A stretch of DNA of 64,000 nucleotides, taken from NCBI GenBank assembly GCA_003990705.1, contig AP018318.1:5195001-5259000 (forward strand). The letters are read 5' to 3'. The position numbers were made by a program, and so were the translations under genes. This document shows positions 4,523 through 56,029 of the stretch, one piece after another; within the stretch, counting starts at the first letter, position 1, and every line of letters starts with the position of its first letter. The notes beneath the pieces were generated by a model, which had not been told where the DNA came from, did no database searches, and was given only the letters and a program-made list of their open reading frames with translations. This DNA comes from Nostoc sp. HK-01. GTDB taxonomy: Bacteria > Cyanobacteriota > Cyanobacteriia > Cyanobacteriales > Nostocaceae.

Positions 4523-7093
4523 ATGCCAGACCATGATCGAGATGAATTAGCAGCTTTACGGCAGCGTGTTGCAGAGTTAGAACATTTAGAAATTCACTAT
4601 CAGTGTCAGCAAGTTGCACTTGAGGTGCAATTAATTGAACTACAAGCAAAACTGACAACAGGAAATATTAATCCTCATAGTCAAGCAGATATGGCATTGA
4701 CGCTACAACAACTTCAACAAGAAAAAGCTGAAAGAAAACAAGTTGAAGTCGCCCTACAAGAAAGTGAACAACTCTTGAGATTGGCTATAGATGCTGCTTG
4801 GATGGGTTTTTGGGACTGGGATATTTTTACCGATAAATTAATTTGGTCGGAAAGTCATGAACTGTTGTTTGGTTTATCTCCCGGTAGCTTTGAACGCACT
4901 TACGCCGCCTTTTTAGCTTGTCTGCATCCTGAAGATAGAAAATCTGTCACGATAAATATTACTGCTGCTTTGTCAAACAAAACTGACTATAAAGACGAAT
5001 TTCGGATTATTTGGCCTGACCAAAGCCTGCATTGGATTTCTTCTCAGGGAAAATTTTACTATGACGAGCAGGGACAGGCGGTGCGGATGTTTGGCGTATG
5101 TATGGATATCACTGGTCACAAGCAGACAGAAGAAAACACTCGCCAACTCACCAGCCAAGTTCAAGAACAAGCAAATCTGTTAAATGCTATTCTGGCAACT
5201 TCTGTAGATCATATTTATATATTTGATCGCACAGGTCGCCATCAGTATATTAGTCATGGTGGCGCGGCTATCTTAGGCTTAAAACCCCAGGAACTTTTGG
5301 GTAAAACCTTACGAGACTTGAATTTACCGAATGATTTTGCTGAACAAGTGGAAACTCAGCAACAAGCTGTAATGGAATCTGGGGAATCAGTCAAGGATGA
5401 ATGTCAACTACTCACAATCGAAGGATTGCGTGACTACGAATATATTCTCACGCCCTTACGCAATCATACTCAAAGCATTGAAGGTGTAATTATCGTCTCG
5501 CGTGATATTACTGCACATAAAAAAGTTGAACAGTCGTTACGAGAAAGCGAAGCTCGATTCCGCCGCTTGTTTGAGTCTAACTTGATAGGCGTAGCTTTTT
5601 GGAATATGGAAGGCTATATTACTGATGCCAACGATGCTTATTTACAATTAGTTGGTTACACCCGTGATGAGTTTGCGGTTGTAGGGAAAATTGATTGGCG
5701 AGAACTCACACCAGCAGAATATCTAGTTTTAGACAATCACGCCCTAGCAGAAGTCCAAAAAAACGGAGTTTCGCAGATTTACGAAAAAGAATATATCCAC
5801 CGCAACGGTCAGCGAGTAGCGGTAGTTTTAGGGATAGCGTTGTTAGCCGACTGTCAAGATAGGGGTGTGGCTTTTGTTTTAGATATTAGCGATCGCAAAC
5901 GCGCCGAACAAGAACGCGATCAACTCTTACAAACAGAACGCATCGCCCGTCAAGAAGCAGAATTTGCTAACCGTATTAAAGATGAATTTCTCGCGGTTCT
6001 CTCCCACGAACTGCGGACTCCACTCAACCCGATTTTAGGCTGGGCGAAATTGCTGCGAAATCGTCAGTTTGACGAAAAAACTACGAAACAAGCTTTAGAA
6101 ACTATTGAACGCAACGCCAAATTACAAACTCAATTAATTGAAGATTTATTAGATGTTTCGCGCATCCTGCAAGGAAAATTAAGCTTAAATGTCTGTCCGG
6201 TAAGTTTGGTAATGGTTGTGCAAGCAGCGTTAGAAACAGTACGCTTGGCAGCAGAAGCCAAATCTATGCAAATTCATACCGTGTTTGACCCTAATATCGG
6301 TCAAGTTATGGGTGATCCAAATCGCTTACAACAAGTGGTGTGGAATTTACTTTCCAATGCAGTTAAGTTTACCCCAGCATCTGGACAGATAGAAATTCAA
6401 GTTAAAGAAATTGATGGTCAAGCGCAAATTCAAGTTAGTGATACGGGAAAAGGCATTAGACCAGAATTTTTACCATTCGTCTTTGATTATTTTCGTCAAG
6501 CAGATGGGACTACAACCCGGAAATTTGGCGGCTTGGGTTTAGGATTGGCGATTGTCCGTCAGGTAGTAGAAATGCACGGCGGTACAGTTAAGGCAGACAG
6601 CCCCGGTGAAGGCTTGGGTGCTACCTTTACAGTGAGGATACCTTTGTTAGTGATTAACGAACCAGTCAAGCGAGGAGAGAATGAATTTTTATCTTCTGAG
6701 TCTGAATCTCCCCATCTTGTCGGTATCAAAGTTTTAGTAGTGGATGACGAACCTGATATCCGCGACTTAATTACGTTTATTTTGCATGATTATGGTGTGG
6801 ATGTTACCGCAGTCACATCCGCAACCGCAGCCCTAAATGAACTGTCGCAGTCCTTACCTGATATCTTGATTAGTGATATTGGAATGCCCGAAGTAGACGG
6901 TTATATGCTAATTCGTCAATTACGCCAGCGATCGCCCCAACAAGGCGGAAATGTCCCCGCGATCGCTCTCACAGCCTACGCTGGGGAAATAAACCAACAG
7001 CAAGCACTCACAGCCGGATTTCAATTGCACATACCCAAGCCAGTCGATCCAGATGCTCTAGTAAGTGCGATCGCTAGTTTAGTTAAGCGTTAG
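4523..7093 (+). CDS. Hybrid sensor histidine kinase with three PAS domains
   Basis: A soluble multi-domain sensor with no membrane segment. Order: N-terminal coiled coil (about 1-75), PAS (about 80-200), PAS (about 220-335), PAS (about 340-465), HisKA with the H-box LSHELRTPLNP (His495), HATPase with NLLSNAVKF, DTGKGI and GGLGLGLAI, and a C-terminal receiver with VVDDEPD, the phosphoacceptor in ISDIGMP (Asp785) and KPVD. A phosphorelay from His to Asp within one chain is expected. ATG 4523 is chosen; an in-frame TTG at 4505 would add six residues. No separate response regulator is next to it. The signal sensed is unknown. Confidence 0.94.
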   Translation: MPDHDRDELAALRQRVAELEHLEIHYQCQQVALEVQLIELQAKLTTGNINPHSQADMALTLQQLQQEKAERKQVEVALQESEQLLRLAIDAAWMGFWDWDIFTDKLIWSESHELLFGLSPGSFERTYAAFLACLHPEDRKSVTINITAALSNKTDYKDEFRIIWPDQSLHWISSQGKFYYDEQGQAVRMFGVCMDITGHKQTEENTRQLTSQVQEQANLLNAILATSVDHIYIFDRTGRHQYISHGGAAILGLKPQELLGKTLRDLNLPNDFAEQVETQQQAVMESGESVKDECQLLTIEGLRDYEYILTPLRNHTQSIEGVIIVSRDITAHKKVEQSLRESEARFRRLFESNLIGVAFWNMEGYITDANDAYLQLVGYTRDEFAVVGKIDWRELTPAEYLVLDNHALAEVQKNGVSQIYEKEYIHRNGQRVAVVLGIALLADCQDRGVAFVLDISDRKRAEQERDQLLQTERIARQEAEFANRIKDEFLAVLSHELRTPLNPILGWAKLLRNRQFDEKTTKQALETIERNAKLQTQLIEDLLDVSRILQGKLSLNVCPVSLVMVVQAALETVRLAAEAKSMQIHTVFDPNIGQVMGDPNRLQQVVWNLLSNAVKFTPASGQIEIQVKEIDGQAQIQVSDTGKGIRPEFLPFVFDYFRQADGTTTRKFGGLGLGLAIVRQVVEMHGGTVKADSPGEGLGATFTVRIPLLVINEPVKRGENEFLSSESESPHLVGIKVLVVDDEPDIRDLITFILHDYGVDVTAVTSATAALNELSQSLPDILISDIGMPEVDGYMLIRQLRQRSPQQGGNVPAIALTAYAGEINQQQALTAGFQLHIPKPVDPDALVSAIASLVKR

Positions 7094-21861: not shown

Positions 21862-21945
21862 ATGAATAAGTAAAAAGTAAAAAGTAAAAAGGCAAAAGAC
21901 AAAAGATTGGGTTCTTTTTACTTTTACCTTTTACCTTTTAACTTT
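21862..21945. repeat. Heptamer-type spacer with self-complementary arms
   Basis: The purS-purQ spacer holds tandem AAAGTAA/AAAGTAAA-type units, followed by the complementary TTTTTACTTTTACC series, so the two halves can pair as a long A/T-rich hairpin. This is typical of short tandem repeats in Nostocales spacers. Confidence 0.6.
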
Positions 21946-22223
21946 TAAAACACTCCCGTCTGTGTTTCGACCTCAATTAAATCAAACCGATAGTTCTCAA
22001 TCACGGGATTTGCTAACATCTGGTCACAAATGTTGTTTAAATCTTGACGTGCTTTTGTCTCATCAGGGGAGATGATGGTGAATTCTATGTACTTCCCAAT
22101 CCGCACATGGTCAACAGTATCGTATCCCATTTGCTTGAGACCAGATTGTACAGCCACACCAGCAGGGTCTAGGACTGAAGGACGAAGCGTTACGAGAATT
22201 TTAGCTAGATACTTCCGTTGCAC
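21945..22223 (-). CDS. purS: Phosphoribosylformylglycinamidine synthase subunit PurS
   Basis: 92 residues. PurS bridges PurL and PurQ in the FGAM synthase complex. The family start (KYLAKILVTLRPSVLDPAG), VDHVRIGKYIEF and the terminal NPVIENYRF are clear. Translation begins at GTG 22223 with no strong ribosome-binding site. It lies upstream of purQ on the same strand and diverges from the Fur-family gene. Confidence 0.96.
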   Translation of the reverse strand: MQRKYLAKILVTLRPSVLDPAGVAVQSGLKQMGYDTVDHVRIGKYIEFTIISPDETKARQDLNNICDQMLANPVIENYRFDLIEVETQTGVF

Positions 22224-25874: not shown

Positions 25875-26063
25875 GCTACGGTGTACACACAAGTCTTATA
25901 AAGTGCTTAACAGTGTTTTGATCCCCCCTAACCCCCCTTAAAAAGGGGGGAATTTCTTCAAGTCCCCCTTTTTAAGGGGAGCCACTGCGTTGCGGGGGTT
26001 CCCCCCGTTGTAGCAAGTGGCGTGGATTTAGGGGGATCAGATGATTTGTGTATATACCGTAGC
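25875..26063. repeat. Outer inverted repeat enclosing element copy 2
   Basis: GCTACGGTGTACACACAAGTC (25875-25895, 21 nt) and the complement of 26043-26063 agree at 18 of 21 positions; all three differences are transitions. The arms face each other across a 147-bp interior that contains the GATC-ended element, so the whole 189 bp can fold as one nested cruciform. Confidence 0.65.
25920..26038. mobile_element. MITE-like element, copy 2 (internal module inverted)
   Basis: 119 bp with the same GATCCCCCCTAACCCCCC and TTTAGGGGGATC ends as copy 1. The internal module is present in the opposite orientation relative to the ends: it reads GGGGAGCCACTGCGTTG ... TAGCAAGTGGCGTGG, the complement of copy 1's module. 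The centre contains the small palindrome CGGGGG-TT-CCCCCCG. It is non-coding. Confidence 0.75.
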
Positions 26064-26241
26064 TCCCTTTGGGGGAGAGGTTTGGAGAGAGTTTTCAATA
26101 TAAGTCGTTTATTGCGTTAAAAAACTAAAACCATCATAATTTCTTAAATCAATCAATTTATTTTCCGTTATTTTACGGAAATTTGCTAAATAGTAAGGAA
26201 GTTAAATAAAAAATTAATACATAAGAAACAGTGTAAAGACT

Positions 26242-26832
26242 ATGGCAGCTTTTCTGAAAGTAATGTTTGCAGGAGTTTTGATGACAGGAGGAGTGCTGGC
26301 AGCAAACACCATATCTGCAATTGCCAAAGAAGTCAAGACGGGAAATTTATTAATAGCACAAACACCAGCAAAATCACAGGTTATAGCATTGCCCATCGCT
26401 TTACCAGATTCAGCAGATATTTCTTTAAAAGATGGAGAATCCGTGAGTGGTAGGGTAATTAAAGTAGATCCTCAAGGACAAACATTAACAATTCAGCGTA
26501 GTAGCAAAACTCGCTCTATTCCTCTAAATAAAATTGACAAAGTACTGTTCAAAAATGCCGCTGCTTATGTAACTCGCGTTTATCCAAGAATGCGCGGTGA
26601 ACGCAAACGCCCTATAGGTAAACCAATAACTTGGAATGGTGTACCTCTAAATACTTTTACAATTAAAAATCCAGTTAAAGGTGAAGCAGAAGTTACGTTG
26701 GCTCCCCCTGTTGTTTCCCGCGCGGGGTTGTTAGGTATTCAATCAGTAGCTAAAGATCGGCAATATGTAGTAGATCAAATCCAGTTTAATCCGCAGAAAA
26801 GAACAATGACTATTCAGGCAACACCTTATTAA
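26242..26832 (+). CDS. Exported protein of unknown function
   Basis: 196 residues with an N-terminal hydrophobic segment (FLKVMFAGVLMTGGVLAAN) that looks like a signal peptide. The middle reads LKDGESVSGRVIKVDPQGQTLTIQRSSKTRSIPL, a beta-rich module of alternating polar and hydrophobic residues, followed by a basic patch (RMRGERKRPIGKP) and further beta strands. I do not recognise a family beyond conserved cyanobacterial exported proteins. It probably acts in the periplasm or thylakoid lumen. No operon partner is seen: the next gene is on the other strand. Confidence 0.75.
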   Translation: MAAFLKVMFAGVLMTGGVLAANTISAIAKEVKTGNLLIAQTPAKSQVIALPIALPDSADISLKDGESVSGRVIKVDPQGQTLTIQRSSKTRSIPLNKIDKVLFKNAAAYVTRVYPRMRGERKRPIGKPITWNGVPLNTFTIKNPVKGEAEVTLAPPVVSRAGLLGIQSVAKDRQYVVDQIQFNPQKRTMTIQATPY

Positions 26833-26849
26833 CGTGAGTTTGACGGATG

Positions 26850-26977
26850 TCAAAAACCCCTCTCCAAACCTCTCGCCCACGGTGAGAGAGGCTTTGAAAC
26901 CTTGAATTTTTTGTTCAAAATTAGGGGGATTTAAGCCCCTCTCCGTGTCGGAGAGGGGTTGGGGAGAGGTTCATCAA
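26850..26977. repeat. Paired CCCCTCTCC / GGAGAGGGG repeats
   Basis: The gap between two convergent genes is filled by AACCCCTCTCCAAACCTCTC ... GTGAGAGAGGC and GCCCCTCTCCGTGTCGGAGAGGGG. The latter is a 10-bp-plus hairpin that can serve as a bidirectional terminator. It belongs to the same dispersed family as 20825, 25785 and 32690. Confidence 0.65.
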
Positions 26978-26990
26978 ACTTACGTTAGAT

Positions 26991-27353
26991 TTAGGTAGTA
27001 CTTAAAGCCATACCTTGACGCATTGCACGCTTGCGATCGCTTTTTCGAGTTCCTCCAGCCATTTGATACTCGTGGCTATTGTTGCCAAACTTATAAGCAA
27101 TTCCACGCAAAATATTTTCCGAATAATCTGCTAAATGTTCCTCATTTTCCACAATCTGGGTTAATAAAACATCAATACTAGAAAGAGTAGTATTATACGA
27201 TTCCAGTAATTGTCTCATCTTTTCTATTTTTTCAGTATAATCTGTGACTGTTAATCCTTCCCCTACATCCAGAGTTGAACTGATAGATTTAATGCTGGCT
27301 AGACGCATTTCGGCTTTTTCGAGAATACGTGAAGTGCGCTTTCTTCTTGACAT
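26991..27353 (-). CDS. Small helical protein of unknown function
   Basis: 120 residues, very basic at both ends (MSRRKRTSR, RKSDRKRAMR) with a central helical, coiled-coil-like region (EKIEKMRQLLESYNTTLSSIDVLLTQIVENEEHLADYSENILRGI). No signal or membrane segment. The coding character is convincing (charge pattern, normal codon use), but I do not recognise the family. The divergent gap upstream of it carries the 21-bp palindrome array. Confidence 0.7.
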   Translation of the reverse strand: MSRRKRTSRILEKAEMRLASIKSISSTLDVGEGLTVTDYTEKIEKMRQLLESYNTTLSSIDVLLTQIVENEEHLADYSENILRGIAYKFGNNSHEYQMAGGTRKSDRKRAMRQGMALSTT

Positions 27354-27497
27354 AATTAATACTCATTTTTTGAGTTAACCTTTACTCTATAGTGAACAAT
27401 TGTATAAAAAGTTGCCATACGTAAAATCATTGATTTTTGTTAAATAATCAATGTTAAAGCGGAAACTACTACAGACTGAGGGAAACACGGAAATGTA

Positions 27498-27644
27498 AAA
27501 GCAGAAGTTACTTCAAGAACAACAAAAGTTACTTTCCCTAAAGCAGAAGTTACTTCAAGAACAACAAAAGTTACTTCCGGGAAAGCGGAAGTTATTTTCA
27601 AGAAAGCAGAAGTTACTTCTAGGAAAGCGGAAGTAACTTTAGAT
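27498..27644. repeat. Seven-unit 21-bp tandem array of palindromes
   Basis: Seven units of exactly 21 bp, at 27498, 27519, 27540, 27561, 27582, 27603 and 27624. The core of each is GAAGTTACTTC or a near variant, an 11-bp dyad (GAAGT-T-ACTTC). Units 1, 3 and 6 are perfect; unit 2 is the perfect variant AAAGTTACTTT; the others have one or two mismatches. A 70-codon minus-strand frame crosses it but is pure repeat and is not supported as a gene. Confidence 0.85.
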
Positions 27645-27727
27645 AGCATCAAATTTGAGATTGCGATCGCCCTAGTATATAAAAATGTAGTATTTGCAAA
27701 AATGCGATCGCTTGAGCATTTGTAGAA

Positions 27728-27806
27728 GATCCCCCTAAATCCCCCTTAAAAAGGGGGACTTTAAGAGAATTATTAGCCCCCCTTTTTAAGGGGGGTTGGG
27801 GGGATC
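27728..27806. mobile_element. MITE-like element, copy 3 (minimal form)
   Basis: 79 bp made of little more than the two inverted ends: GATCCCCCTAAATCCCCC-TTAAAAAGGGGG on the left and CCCCCCTTTTTAAGGGGGG-TTGGGGGGATC on the right, joined by about 20 bp. It lacks the internal module of copies 1 and 2. It lies 83 bp upstream of the TPR-CHAT start. Confidence 0.7.
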
Positions 27807-27889
27807 TCCAGGGCGAACGTCACCAACAAGCAAACTTTAAAAACATCCTCTAAACTTCTCAATTTTCCCCAACCAAATCAAACTGCAAT

Positions 27890-30484
27890 ATGCAAAAAAT
27901 TCTTACCAGTGTATTAGCTGTATGTGTTTACCTAACGCCCTTAACAGTGACACTCATAGCTCAACCCAGTTGGGGAGAAACGGAAACACCCCAAGCACAA
28001 ACAACTGAAAAACTACTACAACAGGCAATACAAAAGAGAGAACAACAAGAATATCAACAAGCCATCCCCATATTCCAGCAAGTTTTGGTTATGGCACAAG
28101 AACACAAAGACCAAAAGCTAGAAGCAACCGCACTTTTGTGGCTTGGATTTTGCTACTCCGCATTAGGAGAAAAGCAGCAGGCATTGTCATATTACAACCA
28201 AGCTCTACCCCTTTTTCGTGCCGTGGGCGATCGCGTGGGGGAAGCTGCTACTCTCCATAACATTGGTCAAGTCTACTCCGTATTAGGAGAACAGCAGCAG
28301 ACATTGTCATATTACAACCAAGCTTTGCCCCTTTCTCGTGCCGTGGGCGATCGCGTAGGGGAAGCTGCTACTCTCACTAGTATTGGTGCAGTCTACTTCG
28401 TATTAGGAGAACAGCAGCAGGCATTGTCATATTACAACCAAGCTCTGCCCCTATATCGTGCCGTGGGCGAGCGCGCGGGGGAAGCTATTACTCTCAATAA
28501 CATTGGTCTAGTCTACTGGGCATTAGGAGAACAGCAGCAGGCATTGTTATATTACAACCAAGCTCTGCCCCTTTCTCGTGCCGTGGGCAATCGCGCGGGG
28601 GAAGCCAGAACTCTTACTAGTATCGGTGCAGTCTACGACGCATTAGGAGAAAAGCAGCAGGCATTGTCATATTACAACCAAGCTCTGCTCCTTTCTCGTG
28701 CCGTGGGCGATCGGGAGGCGGAAGCTATTACTCTCCATAACATTGGTCTAGTCTACTGGGCATTAGGAGAACAGCAGCAGGCATTGTCATATTACAACCA
28801 AGCTCTGCCCCTTTCTCGTGCCGTGGGCAATCGCATGGGGGAAGCTGCTACTCTCACTAGTATTGGTGCAGTCTACTGGGCATTAGGAGAACAGCAGCAG
28901 GCATTGTCATATTACAACCAAGCTCTGCCCCTTTTTCGTGCTGTGGGCGATCGCGTGCGGGAAGCTGCTACATTGGCTAATAGAGGTATATTATTTCATA
29001 ATATAAATCGACCAATTAAAGCCATTACTGATTTAGAAAAATCTCTGCAAATCAATTTAGAATTGCGTCGGGGTTTAAAGCAAGAACATCGCCAAAAGTT
29101 TTTACCGCAATATGACTGGAGTGCAACTGCTCTAGTCGATGTCTTGATTAATCAAAAGAAAAATGACCAAGCTTTTGCTTGGGTTAACCTGTTCAGCACT
29201 GCTGATTTAGCTGACTACAATCGTCTAATTAATGCCAAAGTTGCCAACCCCGCAGCCCAACAAGCTATTAATAATTGGAATTTAAAAAATCAACAACTAG
29301 AAACTCAACGACAACAACTGCAAAATAACTTTTCCGCAGACTTCGCTGAAAAAATTCGCCAATTAGAAACACAAGTTTATCAGCAAGCCACAGATGTATC
29401 TCGCCAATTTCCCGAAGTTGCCGAACTTTTTGAAACCACACCCGCCGATATTGACAAGCTTAAATCATCTATCTCCGCCGACACAGTAATAATTCAACCA
29501 GTCTTGTTGACTAATGCGGGAAGTATACCAAAGTCTTTAGCAATATTTATCTTAACTAAGAATAAAGTAACCGTTATTAAAACATTAATTAAACCAGATG
29601 AATTTGATCAACTTCTTACCCAATATCTAGAGCAATTAGAAGATGACAGTGATTTTGGCTTTGCAGAAAATAGCACTAAATTATATGATATTCTCATTCG
29701 ACCTGTAGAAGCTGAAATCCAAAAATTGCAACCCAAGCAATTAAGCATCATCGCCACAGGCAAATTCAGCTATCTCCCTTTTGAAACCCTCAGAGACAGC
29801 AAAACAGACAAGTATTTAATCCAAAAATATCCCGTTAATTATCTCAGCCGCATTTCTACAAGTTCTTTAAGTTCATCAAAAGAAACTACAAGCCAAGCAC
29901 CAAAAGTTTTGGCTTTTGGTAATCCTGTACCTCGTGAATCGCAGAATTTACCAGGTGCAGAAACAGAAGTTACCGAAATCAAGAAATTACTACCAGGAAG
30001 CGAAGTTTATCCTGGCAATAAAGCCACCCTGGCAAATTTCAAAAATCAGGTCTTTCGCTTTAATTTTGTCCATTTAGCAACTCATGGCTGCTTCCAAAAT
30101 GCCGACTGTACAACAATAAATTTAAAAAATAATTCATTGCTGTTTGCCGATGCACAGTTTAACATTGCTGATGCAGCATTTTTAGGTTTAAAAGGTACAC
30201 AATTATTGACCCTGAGTGCTTGTCAAACTGCCAAAAAAATTGATGATAAAGGCGTAGGTATTGCTGGTGTTGCTTATATATTTGAACGCGCTGGCGCTAA
30301 AGCAGTGATGGCGAGTTTGTGGGCGGTTGAAGACGACTCAACCCAAAAACTTATGATTGATTTTTATACAAATCTCCAGCAAGGTAAGACTAAAGGAGAA
30401 GCATTACAACAAGCCAAGTTAAAGCAAATTGAGCGTCATCCCTTTTATTGGTCGCCATTTGTCATCATTGGCGATGCACGGTGA
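27890..30484 (+). CDS. TPR-CHAT caspase-like protein
   Basis: 864 residues: an N-terminal signal-like segment (ILTSVLAVCVYLTPLTVTLIA), a first TPR unit, seven near-identical 40-residue TPR units (about 91-363), a helical linker, and a C-terminal CHAT domain (about 600-864). The caspase-type dyad is visible: His732 in HLATHG and Cys778 in LSACQT. Also present are the CHAT hallmarks GKFSYLPFE, GVGIAGVAYIFERAGA and ASLWAVED. CHAT proteins are separase/caspase-like peptidases; TPRs would bind a partner. The PP2C gene begins 66 bp downstream and is probably co-transcribed. Export is suggested by the N-terminus but not certain. Confidence 0.92.
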   Translation: MQKILTSVLAVCVYLTPLTVTLIAQPSWGETETPQAQTTEKLLQQAIQKREQQEYQQAIPIFQQVLVMAQEHKDQKLEATALLWLGFCYSALGEKQQALSYYNQALPLFRAVGDRVGEAATLHNIGQVYSVLGEQQQTLSYYNQALPLSRAVGDRVGEAATLTSIGAVYFVLGEQQQALSYYNQALPLYRAVGERAGEAITLNNIGLVYWALGEQQQALLYYNQALPLSRAVGNRAGEARTLTSIGAVYDALGEKQQALSYYNQALLLSRAVGDREAEAITLHNIGLVYWALGEQQQALSYYNQALPLSRAVGNRMGEAATLTSIGAVYWALGEQQQALSYYNQALPLFRAVGDRVREAATLANRGILFHNINRPIKAITDLEKSLQINLELRRGLKQEHRQKFLPQYDWSATALVDVLINQKKNDQAFAWVNLFSTADLADYNRLINAKVANPAAQQAINNWNLKNQQLETQRQQLQNNFSADFAEKIRQLETQVYQQATDVSRQFPEVAELFETTPADIDKLKSSISADTVIIQPVLLTNAGSIPKSLAIFILTKNKVTVIKTLIKPDEFDQLLTQYLEQLEDDSDFGFAENSTKLYDILIRPVEAEIQKLQPKQLSIIATGKFSYLPFETLRDSKTDKYLIQKYPVNYLSRISTSSLSSSKETTSQAPKVLAFGNPVPRESQNLPGAETEVTEIKKLLPGSEVYPGNKATLANFKNQVFRFNFVHLATHGCFQNADCTTINLKNNSLLFADAQFNIADAAFLGLKGTQLLTLSACQTAKKIDDKGVGIAGVAYIFERAGAKAVMASLWAVEDDSTQKLMIDFYTNLQQGKTKGEALQQAKLKQIERHPFYWSPFVIIGDAR
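28161..29000 (+). repeat. 120-bp in-frame tandem repeats inside the TPR-CHAT gene
   Basis: Seven units of exactly 120 bp begin at 28161, 28281, 28401, 28521, 28641, 28761 and 28881, each starting near TTAGGAGAACAGCAGCAG. Long stretches are identical between units, including the GTGCCGTGGGC stretch, and several carry a HIP1 site (GGCGATCGCG). Such DNA-level identity means recent duplication or gene conversion. Confidence 0.9.
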
Positions 30485-48998: not shown

Positions 48999-49634
48999 GT
49001 GTCTGTAGGTATTCTCGGCACCAAACTGGGCATGACCCAAGTATTTGACGAAGCAGGAGCAGCAATTCCTGTCACAGTCATTCAAGCGGGGCCATGCACT
49101 GTTACCCAAGTTAAAACAAAACAAACTGATGGTTACGCCGCCATTCAACTTGGTTACGGCGAAGTCAAACCAAAAGCACTCAACAAACCCTTGTTGGGTC
49201 ACTTAGCAAAATCATCAGCCCCAGCTTTACGTCACCTGAGTGAGTTTCGCACAGATAATTCTGGCGAATACACATTAGGACAAGAAATTAAAGCAGATAT
49301 TTTTAGTGCTGGTCAAATCGTAGATGTAATCGGTACAAGCATCGGTCGCGGTTTTGCAGGCAACCAAAAACGGAATAACTTTGGTCGCGGGCCAATGTCT
49401 CACGGTTCCAAAAACCACAGAGCGCCCGGTTCCATTGGTGCTGGTACAACACCCGGTCGTGTGTATCCAGGAAAAAGAATGGCAGGGCGTTTGGGTGGTA
49501 CCCGCGTCACCATTAGTAAATTGACAGTTGTGCGTGTAGACGCAGAACGCAACTTGTTACTCATTAAAGGAGCAATCCCTGGTAAACCAGGTGCCTTAGT
49601 GAGTGTCGTACCTGCAAAGAAAGTTGGTAAATAG
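48999..49634 (+). CDS. rplC: 50S ribosomal protein L3
   Basis: 211 residues, canonical L3: [17 protein letters not shown] start, then GKGFAG-type core ([19 protein letters not shown]), [13 protein letters not shown] and [13 protein letters not shown]3 is an early assembly protein near the peptidyl-transferase centre. Translation starts at GTG 48999, preceded by AAGGAG 11 nt upstream. It is the first gene of the cluster: rpsJ (S10), which often leads this operon in other bacteria, is absent. Confidence 0.98.
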
Positions 49635-49739
49635 TCAATGGTCAATGGTCATTAGTCATGAGTCATTAGTCATTAGCTAAAGACAAATGACAAAGAACAA
49701 ATGACAAATGACAAAGGACAAATGACAAAGGACAAAAAA
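49635..49739. repeat. Heptamer repeats between rplC and rplD
   Basis: About 100 bp of tandem heptamers, (TCAATGG), (TCATTAG) and (CAAATGA/CAAAGGA) types, fill the rplC-rplD spacer up to the rplD start codon. They extend an open frame 13 codons upstream of the true start. Confidence 0.85.
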
Positions 49740-51925: not shown

Positions 51926-52013
51926 GAAAGAGTCCAAAGTCAAAAGTCAATAGTCAAGAGTCCCAACAAATGACCATTGACCATTGACCATTGACCATTG
52001 ACCGACTCAAGGA
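51926..52013. repeat. Heptamer repeats between rpsS and rplV
   Basis: Tandem AAAGTCC/AAAGTCA and (TTGACCA)n heptamers in the 95-bp rpsS-rplV spacer; four consecutive TTGACCA-type units are visible (about 51968-52002). Confidence 0.85.
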
Positions 52014-55941: not shown

Positions 55942-56029
55942 AAGTTATAAAGTCAAAAGTCAAAAGTCAAAAGTCAAAAGCCTTTACTGTTGACTATGGA
56001 CTTTAGACAAAGAACAAAGGACAAAAGAT
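55942..56029. repeat. Heptamer repeats between rpsH and rplF
   Basis: (AAAAGTC)n, at least four perfect units (about 55954-55980), with CAAAGAA/CAAAGGA variants before the rplF start. Confidence 0.85.

Follow-up and report, generated by a model that had tools for sequence, protein, structure and literature searches.

Direct-repeat arrays with 20-21 bp steps lie upstream of nearly all members of a cyanobacterial family of small genes

Results

In a cyanobacterial family of small, uncharacterised genes, direct repeats with steps of 20-21 bp form an array in front of nearly every member. Each paralog group has unit sequences of its own, in a constant orientation relative to the gene. The case analysed here is a repeat array in the window (the whole 64,000-nucleotide stretch of DNA that was studied, C1:5195001-5259000, on a Nostocaceae chromosome in a genome of 7.52 Mb). 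This array is one half of a two-part unit, the other half being the adjacent gene for a 120-aa protein. What looks like one odd repeat thus leads to a general rule, that members of the family nearly always own a helically phased array. Of 388 genomes sampled from the class, 82 gave a profile match to the family; they represent seven taxonomic families. Judging from sequence, the reading that we favour, and hold to be probable, is that the proteins act in cis, each binding the array of its own gene in the form of a phased oligomer, and that they combine self-regulation with local organisation of the DNA.

The array in the window

The initial annotation described seven units of exactly 21 bp, each with an operator-like dyad, between the divergently oriented 120-aa gene and a gene encoding a TPR-CHAT protein. 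The location is as claimed and the seven units are real. They start at 27498, 27519, 27540, 27561, 27582, 27603 and 27624, and their length is constant. Of these three lags, 42 gives the highest identity over the 147 bp (0.81), followed by 63 (0.70) and 21 (0.67). In 2000 dinucleotide shuffles the maximum was 0.44 for lag 21, and 0.52 when the best lag between 10 and 63 was taken. Tandem Repeats Finder reports a period of 21 with 6.8 copies (score 130), and scores a 42-bp superunit higher (177). The full array is longer than was first noticed, however: two weaker, diverged units at 27456 and 27477 precede the seven in the same phase, so that there are nine units in all (Table 1).

Table 1. Positions within the window of the array, its partner gene and other repeats mentioned in the text.
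Feature	Position	Strand
120-aa gene, member of a multi-copy family with upstream arrays	26991..27353	-
Spacer, 102 bp, from array to start codon of the 120-aa gene	27354..27455	-
Array, nine direct repeats of exactly 21 bp (42-bp superunits)	27456..27644	- (relative to the 120-aa gene)
Inverted repeat, 31 bp, 81% complementary, arms 19 bp apart, between array and TPR-CHAT gene	27727..27807	
Nearly identical 120-bp repeats, 6.8 copies, 87% matches, in the TPR-CHAT gene	28153..28971	
Heptamer tandem repeats (examples of many)	21868..21948, 49625..49736, 51971..52003, 55949..55980	

The spacer presumably holds the promoter of the 120-aa gene. It is well conserved in the near orthologs L040-L042, and its gene-proximal part also in L043 and L044 (sequences compared side by side); a scan of the window spacer for a sigma-70 consensus promoter gave no match. 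Between array and start codon of other family genes we noted a 7-mer, CTGAACC, present on the gene strand in 10 of 40 protein clusters and on the other strand in none. It is found in L029-family spacers (e.g., L229, L235, L225, L253, L256 and L305) at about 100 bp or less from the start codon, and may belong to a shared promoter; it is absent from the spacer in the window.

On the far side of the array lies the inverted repeat listed in Table 1, which looks like a small dispersed hairpin element; its only Rfam matches are of microRNA type and fall far below gathering scores. The repeats within the TPR-CHAT gene are nearly identical and thus point to recent expansion. TPR genes containing 120-bp repeats are also neighbours of the family genes at L183, L184 and L212.

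The partner gene and its family

A scan of named genomes recovered 31 relatives of the 120-aa gene, mostly from Nostoc and allied genera; the near relatives named are Nostoc and Fortiea. Absence or irregular spacing of the array in close relatives had been proposed as grounds for abandoning a regulatory role. Instead, 26 of the 31 ortholog loci have the array 5' of the gene, with its orientation unchanged. In a 27th, L070 of Nostoc mirabile CHAB5784 (approximately 5001-5433, reverse strand), the array directly abuts a truncated gene, the N-terminal part and the spacer being absent. An array of the window type was not detected in L043, L057, L058 (where the contig ends after 230 bp) or L069; there is a weak 42/21-bp signal of another sequence in L069, a lag-126 signal (0.68) in L057 and nothing in L043 and L058.

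Nine matches to the family, eight of them full-length, are encoded in the genome that contains the window, and other genomes contain up to 17. Family genes occur in 61 of 145 Nostocaceae genomes, and the proteins are mostly 119-146 aa long. Searches of 19 members against Pfam, NCBIfam, PHROG, PADLOC and PDB found no family that matches more than five of them; scores are weak and mostly involve helical or coiled-coil models. The best Pfam match, in four of the 19, is to HBM, a helical sensor domain (E = 1.3e-4). None of these libraries names the family or recognises a DNA-binding domain in it. The literature covered (titles and the openings of abstracts, with few subscription papers) holds no name for the family and no description of this gene-array pairing, and six unit strings had no match in the literature text searched.

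Two other readings were considered and rejected. A defence function was dismissed because each of ten PADLOC families matches weakly, and in just one of the 19 members. As for a phage or plasmid origin, neither the array nor the protein matched a phage record, and a scan of viral contigs with the window protein found no relative. There is a single plasmid record for an array of the window type (Nostoc sp. UHCC 0926), and a single one, from Kovacikia minuta (Leptolyngbyaceae), for the protein or for two paralogs of it; here plasmid pA carries a gene-array pair.

Genes within about 1.5 kb on each side of family genes are not conserved, the largest similarity group comprising 4 of 237. The TPR-CHAT gene recurs past the array in L041 and L042, and a role for this neighbour finds no support.

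Association of arrays with family genes

Paralogs of the 120-aa gene also carry upstream arrays, with quite different unit sequences. A periodic stretch, defined as identity of at least 0.55 over 84 bp at some lag, occurs within 1000 bp upstream in 114 of 122 distinct family genes and downstream in 17; eight of the 122 have no detectable array. These genes are the best-scoring loci of the searches and were derived from 138 loci after removal of 12 repeats of the same gene, three partial genes (L200, L209 and L234) and L255, which has less than 300 bp of upstream sequence. The best lag is a multiple of 20-21 bp in 109 of the 114 upstream stretches and in 4 of the 17 downstream ones. The 109 include L181 and L238 by virtue of a lag of 120, which in L181 belongs to the neighbouring TPR gene; both loci also show 21/42-bp arrays. 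The five best lags that fall outside the class are 27, 64, 69, 86 and 112, and the next-best lags include 21, 42 or 63. Composite best lags of 41, 62, 82, 83 and 125 are mixtures of steps of 20 and 21, and none is divisible by three.

Strong local repeats upstream have a lag of 21 in 55 genes, 20 in two, 18 in two and 14 in one, with none at lags 22-30; downstream, a lag of 21 was found in three. All eight full-length copies in the window's genome have an array, in one case about 1.1 kb upstream. For similarity tests, arrays were delineated in 100 of the 122 genes, 25 of which belong to the window's own subfamily. The delineated arrays have a median length of 213 bp and a median distance to the start codon of 185 bp. 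As a control, no 20-21 bp step was found upstream of any of 51 ORFs of the window, the two genes flanking the array being excluded. Among the other nine periodic stretches upstream of window ORFs the commonest lag is 14, that of heptamer repeats, which are frequent in the window (Table 1); as heptamer repeats can mimic a 21-bp step, they were monitored by this lag.

A distant relative, G521, is the only one that the searches found outside the class, and belongs to another class of the phylum (E = 2.5e-7; locus 70% GC). Here, eight 21-bp units lie directly 3' of the stop codon, on the opposite side of the gene.

Array specificity among paralogs

Sequence similarity between arrays is evident where the proteins are more than about 60% identical. 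It is confined almost entirely to the same strand relative to the gene. Below 55% identity the excess is small and nearly at chance level (mean alignment scores of 10.1-11.7 versus 9.8-10.4), and is significant in most bins above 35% protein identity. For pairs below 60% identity, the correlation between protein and array similarity is weak (Mantel r 0.10), with none of 2000 permutations as high.

In the genome that contains the window, five of the six other paralog arrays have no match away from their own gene (E <= 0.001), barring one weak 38-bp match. The sixth has a single gene-less copy (L341, C1:1817697-1817948), the units of which resemble those of the paralog at C1:1662473 and have a lag-21 identity of 0.98.

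Window-type arrays at other loci

The units of the window's array are members of a dispersed sequence family. Two further arrays of this type are present in the same genome, one between divergent and one between convergent genes; next to the latter, at a distance of 109 bp, is a remnant of the 120-aa gene, 40 residues long. A search with a 126-bp consensus identified window-type arrays in 38 of 145 Nostocaceae genomes, several per genome, and in 7 of the 388 genomes of the class-wide sample, all seven from the same taxonomic family. By visual comparison of the lists, all 38 are among the 61 genomes that have a family gene, and 30 of the 38 encode a close ortholog (E < 1e-43), versus 1 of the 107 genomes without such arrays (Fisher test, phylogeny uncorrected).

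Our collection of 110 such arrays contains 1053 units, which fall into type A (AARGCGGAAGYTGCTACAG; acceptance threshold 16 matches in 21 positions) and type B (TGCGCGAAACACGGAAACGT; threshold 15 in 21). The 110 include two identical pairs in which one record was reached twice (L056/L118 and L064/L106). Despite much base substitution among units, 1050 of the 1053 keep a single 21-bp phase within their array, the three exceptions being in L054 and L160. The two-turn phasing proposed for the window's array is thus upheld across its relatives.

Outside the window and the 31 ortholog loci there are 82 arrays. The genes around them are convergent in 28 cases, tandem in 37 and divergent in 14, and three arrays are flanked by a gene on a single side. 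Window-type arrays thus show no general link to promoters. In 63 of the 82 cases neither a family gene nor a remnant of one was found nearby, and 8 of the 38 array-bearing genomes are without a close ortholog; thus, arrays exist without their supposed partner. The leader unit AAGTCTGTTTCTNATAACGTC, whole or in part, is common to the starts of window-type arrays at different loci (L046, L047, L051-L053, L120, L121, L124, L135, L136, L152, L153 and others), and other arrays end with a similar tail, AAGACAAAACAGAGAAATTT (L044, L048, L126, L161 and others). Sharing of leaders and tails between different loci hints at dispersal as a unit.

Tests on the repeat unit

In the window, GAAGT-T-ACTTC pairs at all five positions in four of the seven units, at four of five in two and at three of five in one. 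These perfect 5+1+5 dyads, and the position of the array between two divergent genes, could be taken to indicate an operator for a repressor that controls both neighbours. The dyad GAAGTTACTTC is, however, a local variant of unit A. The consensus of the window-type family, AARGCGGAAGYTGCTACAG, is not a dyad, and a unit dyad goes beyond shuffling (p < 0.05) in 5 of 60 related arrays, where three are expected by chance. Dyads were therefore rejected as a family feature, and find no support as the operating unit. Given also that the TPR-CHAT neighbour is not conserved and that so many arrays outside the ortholog set lie between convergent genes, a dyad operator is a very unlikely explanation. The more general suggestion of a cooperative binding array for a repressor, nucleoid protein or partition-like protein gains from the phasing, and loses the dyad as its unit.

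Coding repeats were also rejected. Twenty-one is divisible by three, so that the period could equal seven codons; one frame is open through the window's seven units, and the array at L009 lies within a 140-aa ORF. Against this, no frame is open in all of the 110 related arrays (forward frames are open in 65, 40 and 67, reverse frames in 87, 87 and 1), and their positional variability has no codon rhythm. Moreover, arrays of paralogs advance in steps of 20, 41, 62 and 83 bp, which two turns of B-DNA explain and codons do not. That the arrays are, or were, coding sequence is extremely improbable.

An array could, alternatively, act as RNA, the protein binding a repeated transcript. The constant orientation of units relative to the gene would agree with this, as would folding energies below those of dinucleotide shuffles (mean z over 40 arrays: gene strand -2.3, opposite strand -2.1). 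The folding signal is nearly gone with a control that keeps the repeats (mean z of -0.5 and -0.4; 27 arrays) and the two strands behave alike, so folding does not go beyond what the repeat itself gives, and RNA structure was rejected. No Rfam family was found in the array (window positions 26000-29000 scanned), and RNA does not require a rigid two-turn step. Overall, we regard action as RNA as quite unlikely. Phased A-tract curvature was rejected as well: the 10.5-bp harmonic holds a share of 0.127 of the AA/TT power in seven harmonics, which is not a concentration.

Discussion

Proposed function

According to the favoured reading, binding of each protein to its own array in cis, the protein would recognise the unit of its array on one face of the helix at every second turn, and this spacing would allow head-to-tail oligomers to form along the array. 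Binding may set expression of the protein itself, as the position of the array upstream of the gene would permit, and may build a compact or bridged nucleoprotein patch at the locus. The paralogs would have diverged into protein-array pairs that do not cross-react. Gene-less arrays of the window type could be additional binding sites, or leftovers from lost copies. Since there are gene-less arrays, array-bearing genomes without a close ortholog, genes without an array, and a downstream array in G521, arrays may outlive or precede their partner.

A more speculative possibility, which we consider rather doubtful, is that the pairs are orthogonal, single-protein centromere-like loci, forming separate nucleoprotein foci that anchor, count or space chromosome copies or domains in polyploid cells, with proteins and arrays coevolving in the manner of kinetochore proteins and satellites. 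On this view, up to 17 related small proteins in one genome would each have a two-turn array of their own. Binding might amount to plain autoregulation, to local compaction of the DNA or to such a centromere-like role.

The arrays might instead be neutral satellites near the family, expanding by slippage and unequal exchange and without function, as the initial annotation allowed. Copy number is indeed variable and units are homogenised (lag identities up to 1.0), and the gene-less arrays and the array-bearing genomes without a close ortholog would fit. We consider this improbable because the arrays are tied to one family and to one side of its genes, because the 20-21 bp step recurs among units of unrelated sequence, and because phase is kept despite substitution.

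About as improbable, perhaps marginally more so, is a mobile element resembling REP/RAYT systems, in which the arrays would be selfish DNA whose spread is aided by the protein. This would account for the dispersal of window-type arrays, several per genome, and for leaders and tails common to unrelated loci, and paralog-specific units recall REP/RAYT pairs. The proteins are short, however, no transposase-like family was matched in them by the libraries searched, and all but one of the six other array types in the window's genome are without a second copy.

If recognition is real and private, as the favoured cis-binding reading would have it, the family would amount to a naturally occurring collection of orthogonal protein-array pairs, and would offer a way to study the organisation of many chromosome copies in filamentous, polyploid cyanobacteria.

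Comparison with known systems

RAYTs are relatives of transposases, and REPs are hairpins. As in those systems, the repeats described here are linked to one gene. They may share dispersal through the genome as well: 63 of 82 window-type arrays outside the ortholog set are away from any family gene found, and one of six other types in the window's genome has a second copy. Unlike REPs, they are direct repeats without dyads, the arrays are mostly private, and the linked protein matched no transposase-type catalytic domain in the libraries searched.

Genomes of heterocyst-forming cyanobacteria also contain heptamer STRR, LTRR, SDR and HIP1 repeats and the NsiR1 repeats near hetF. These have other unit lengths and sequences, and none is known to us to be tied to one gene family with paralog-specific units.

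Partition systems such as parABS and parMRC have an adjacent ATPase or NTPase gene; family genes have no conserved neighbour within about 1.5 kb. Searches of the 19 members found no library match that would indicate homology to KfrA, StbA or a known DNA-binding family, and thus we say that the family may work like these proteins, not that it is one of them.

The nearest working precedents for array binding are these two plasmid proteins. KfrA of plasmid RA3 binds direct repeats at its own promoter and functions in both autoregulation and DNA maintenance (PMC7783346). It has a mapped helix-turn-helix and a helical tail extending to residue 355, and its five 9-bp repeats overlap the promoter (PMC7783346). 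KfrA is longer and plasmid-borne, whereas the family described here is mostly chromosomal, with upstream two-turn arrays and many paralogous pairs. StbA of plasmid R388 likewise binds direct repeats (stbDRs) at its own promoter, with roles in autoregulation and DNA maintenance, and maintenance of R388 is independent of StbB, the ATPase of the operon (PMC3098194). The stbDRs form two sets of five 9-bp repeats with 2-bp spacing, and each plasmid has one pair, in the stbABC operon (PMC3098194). The likeness lies in a single protein with direct repeats around its own promoter, a feature that has its counterpart here in arrays adjoining the gene of the supposed binder. The difference is that StbA belongs to an operon with one pair per plasmid, while the cyanobacterial genes stand alone, with longer arrays and many paralogs.
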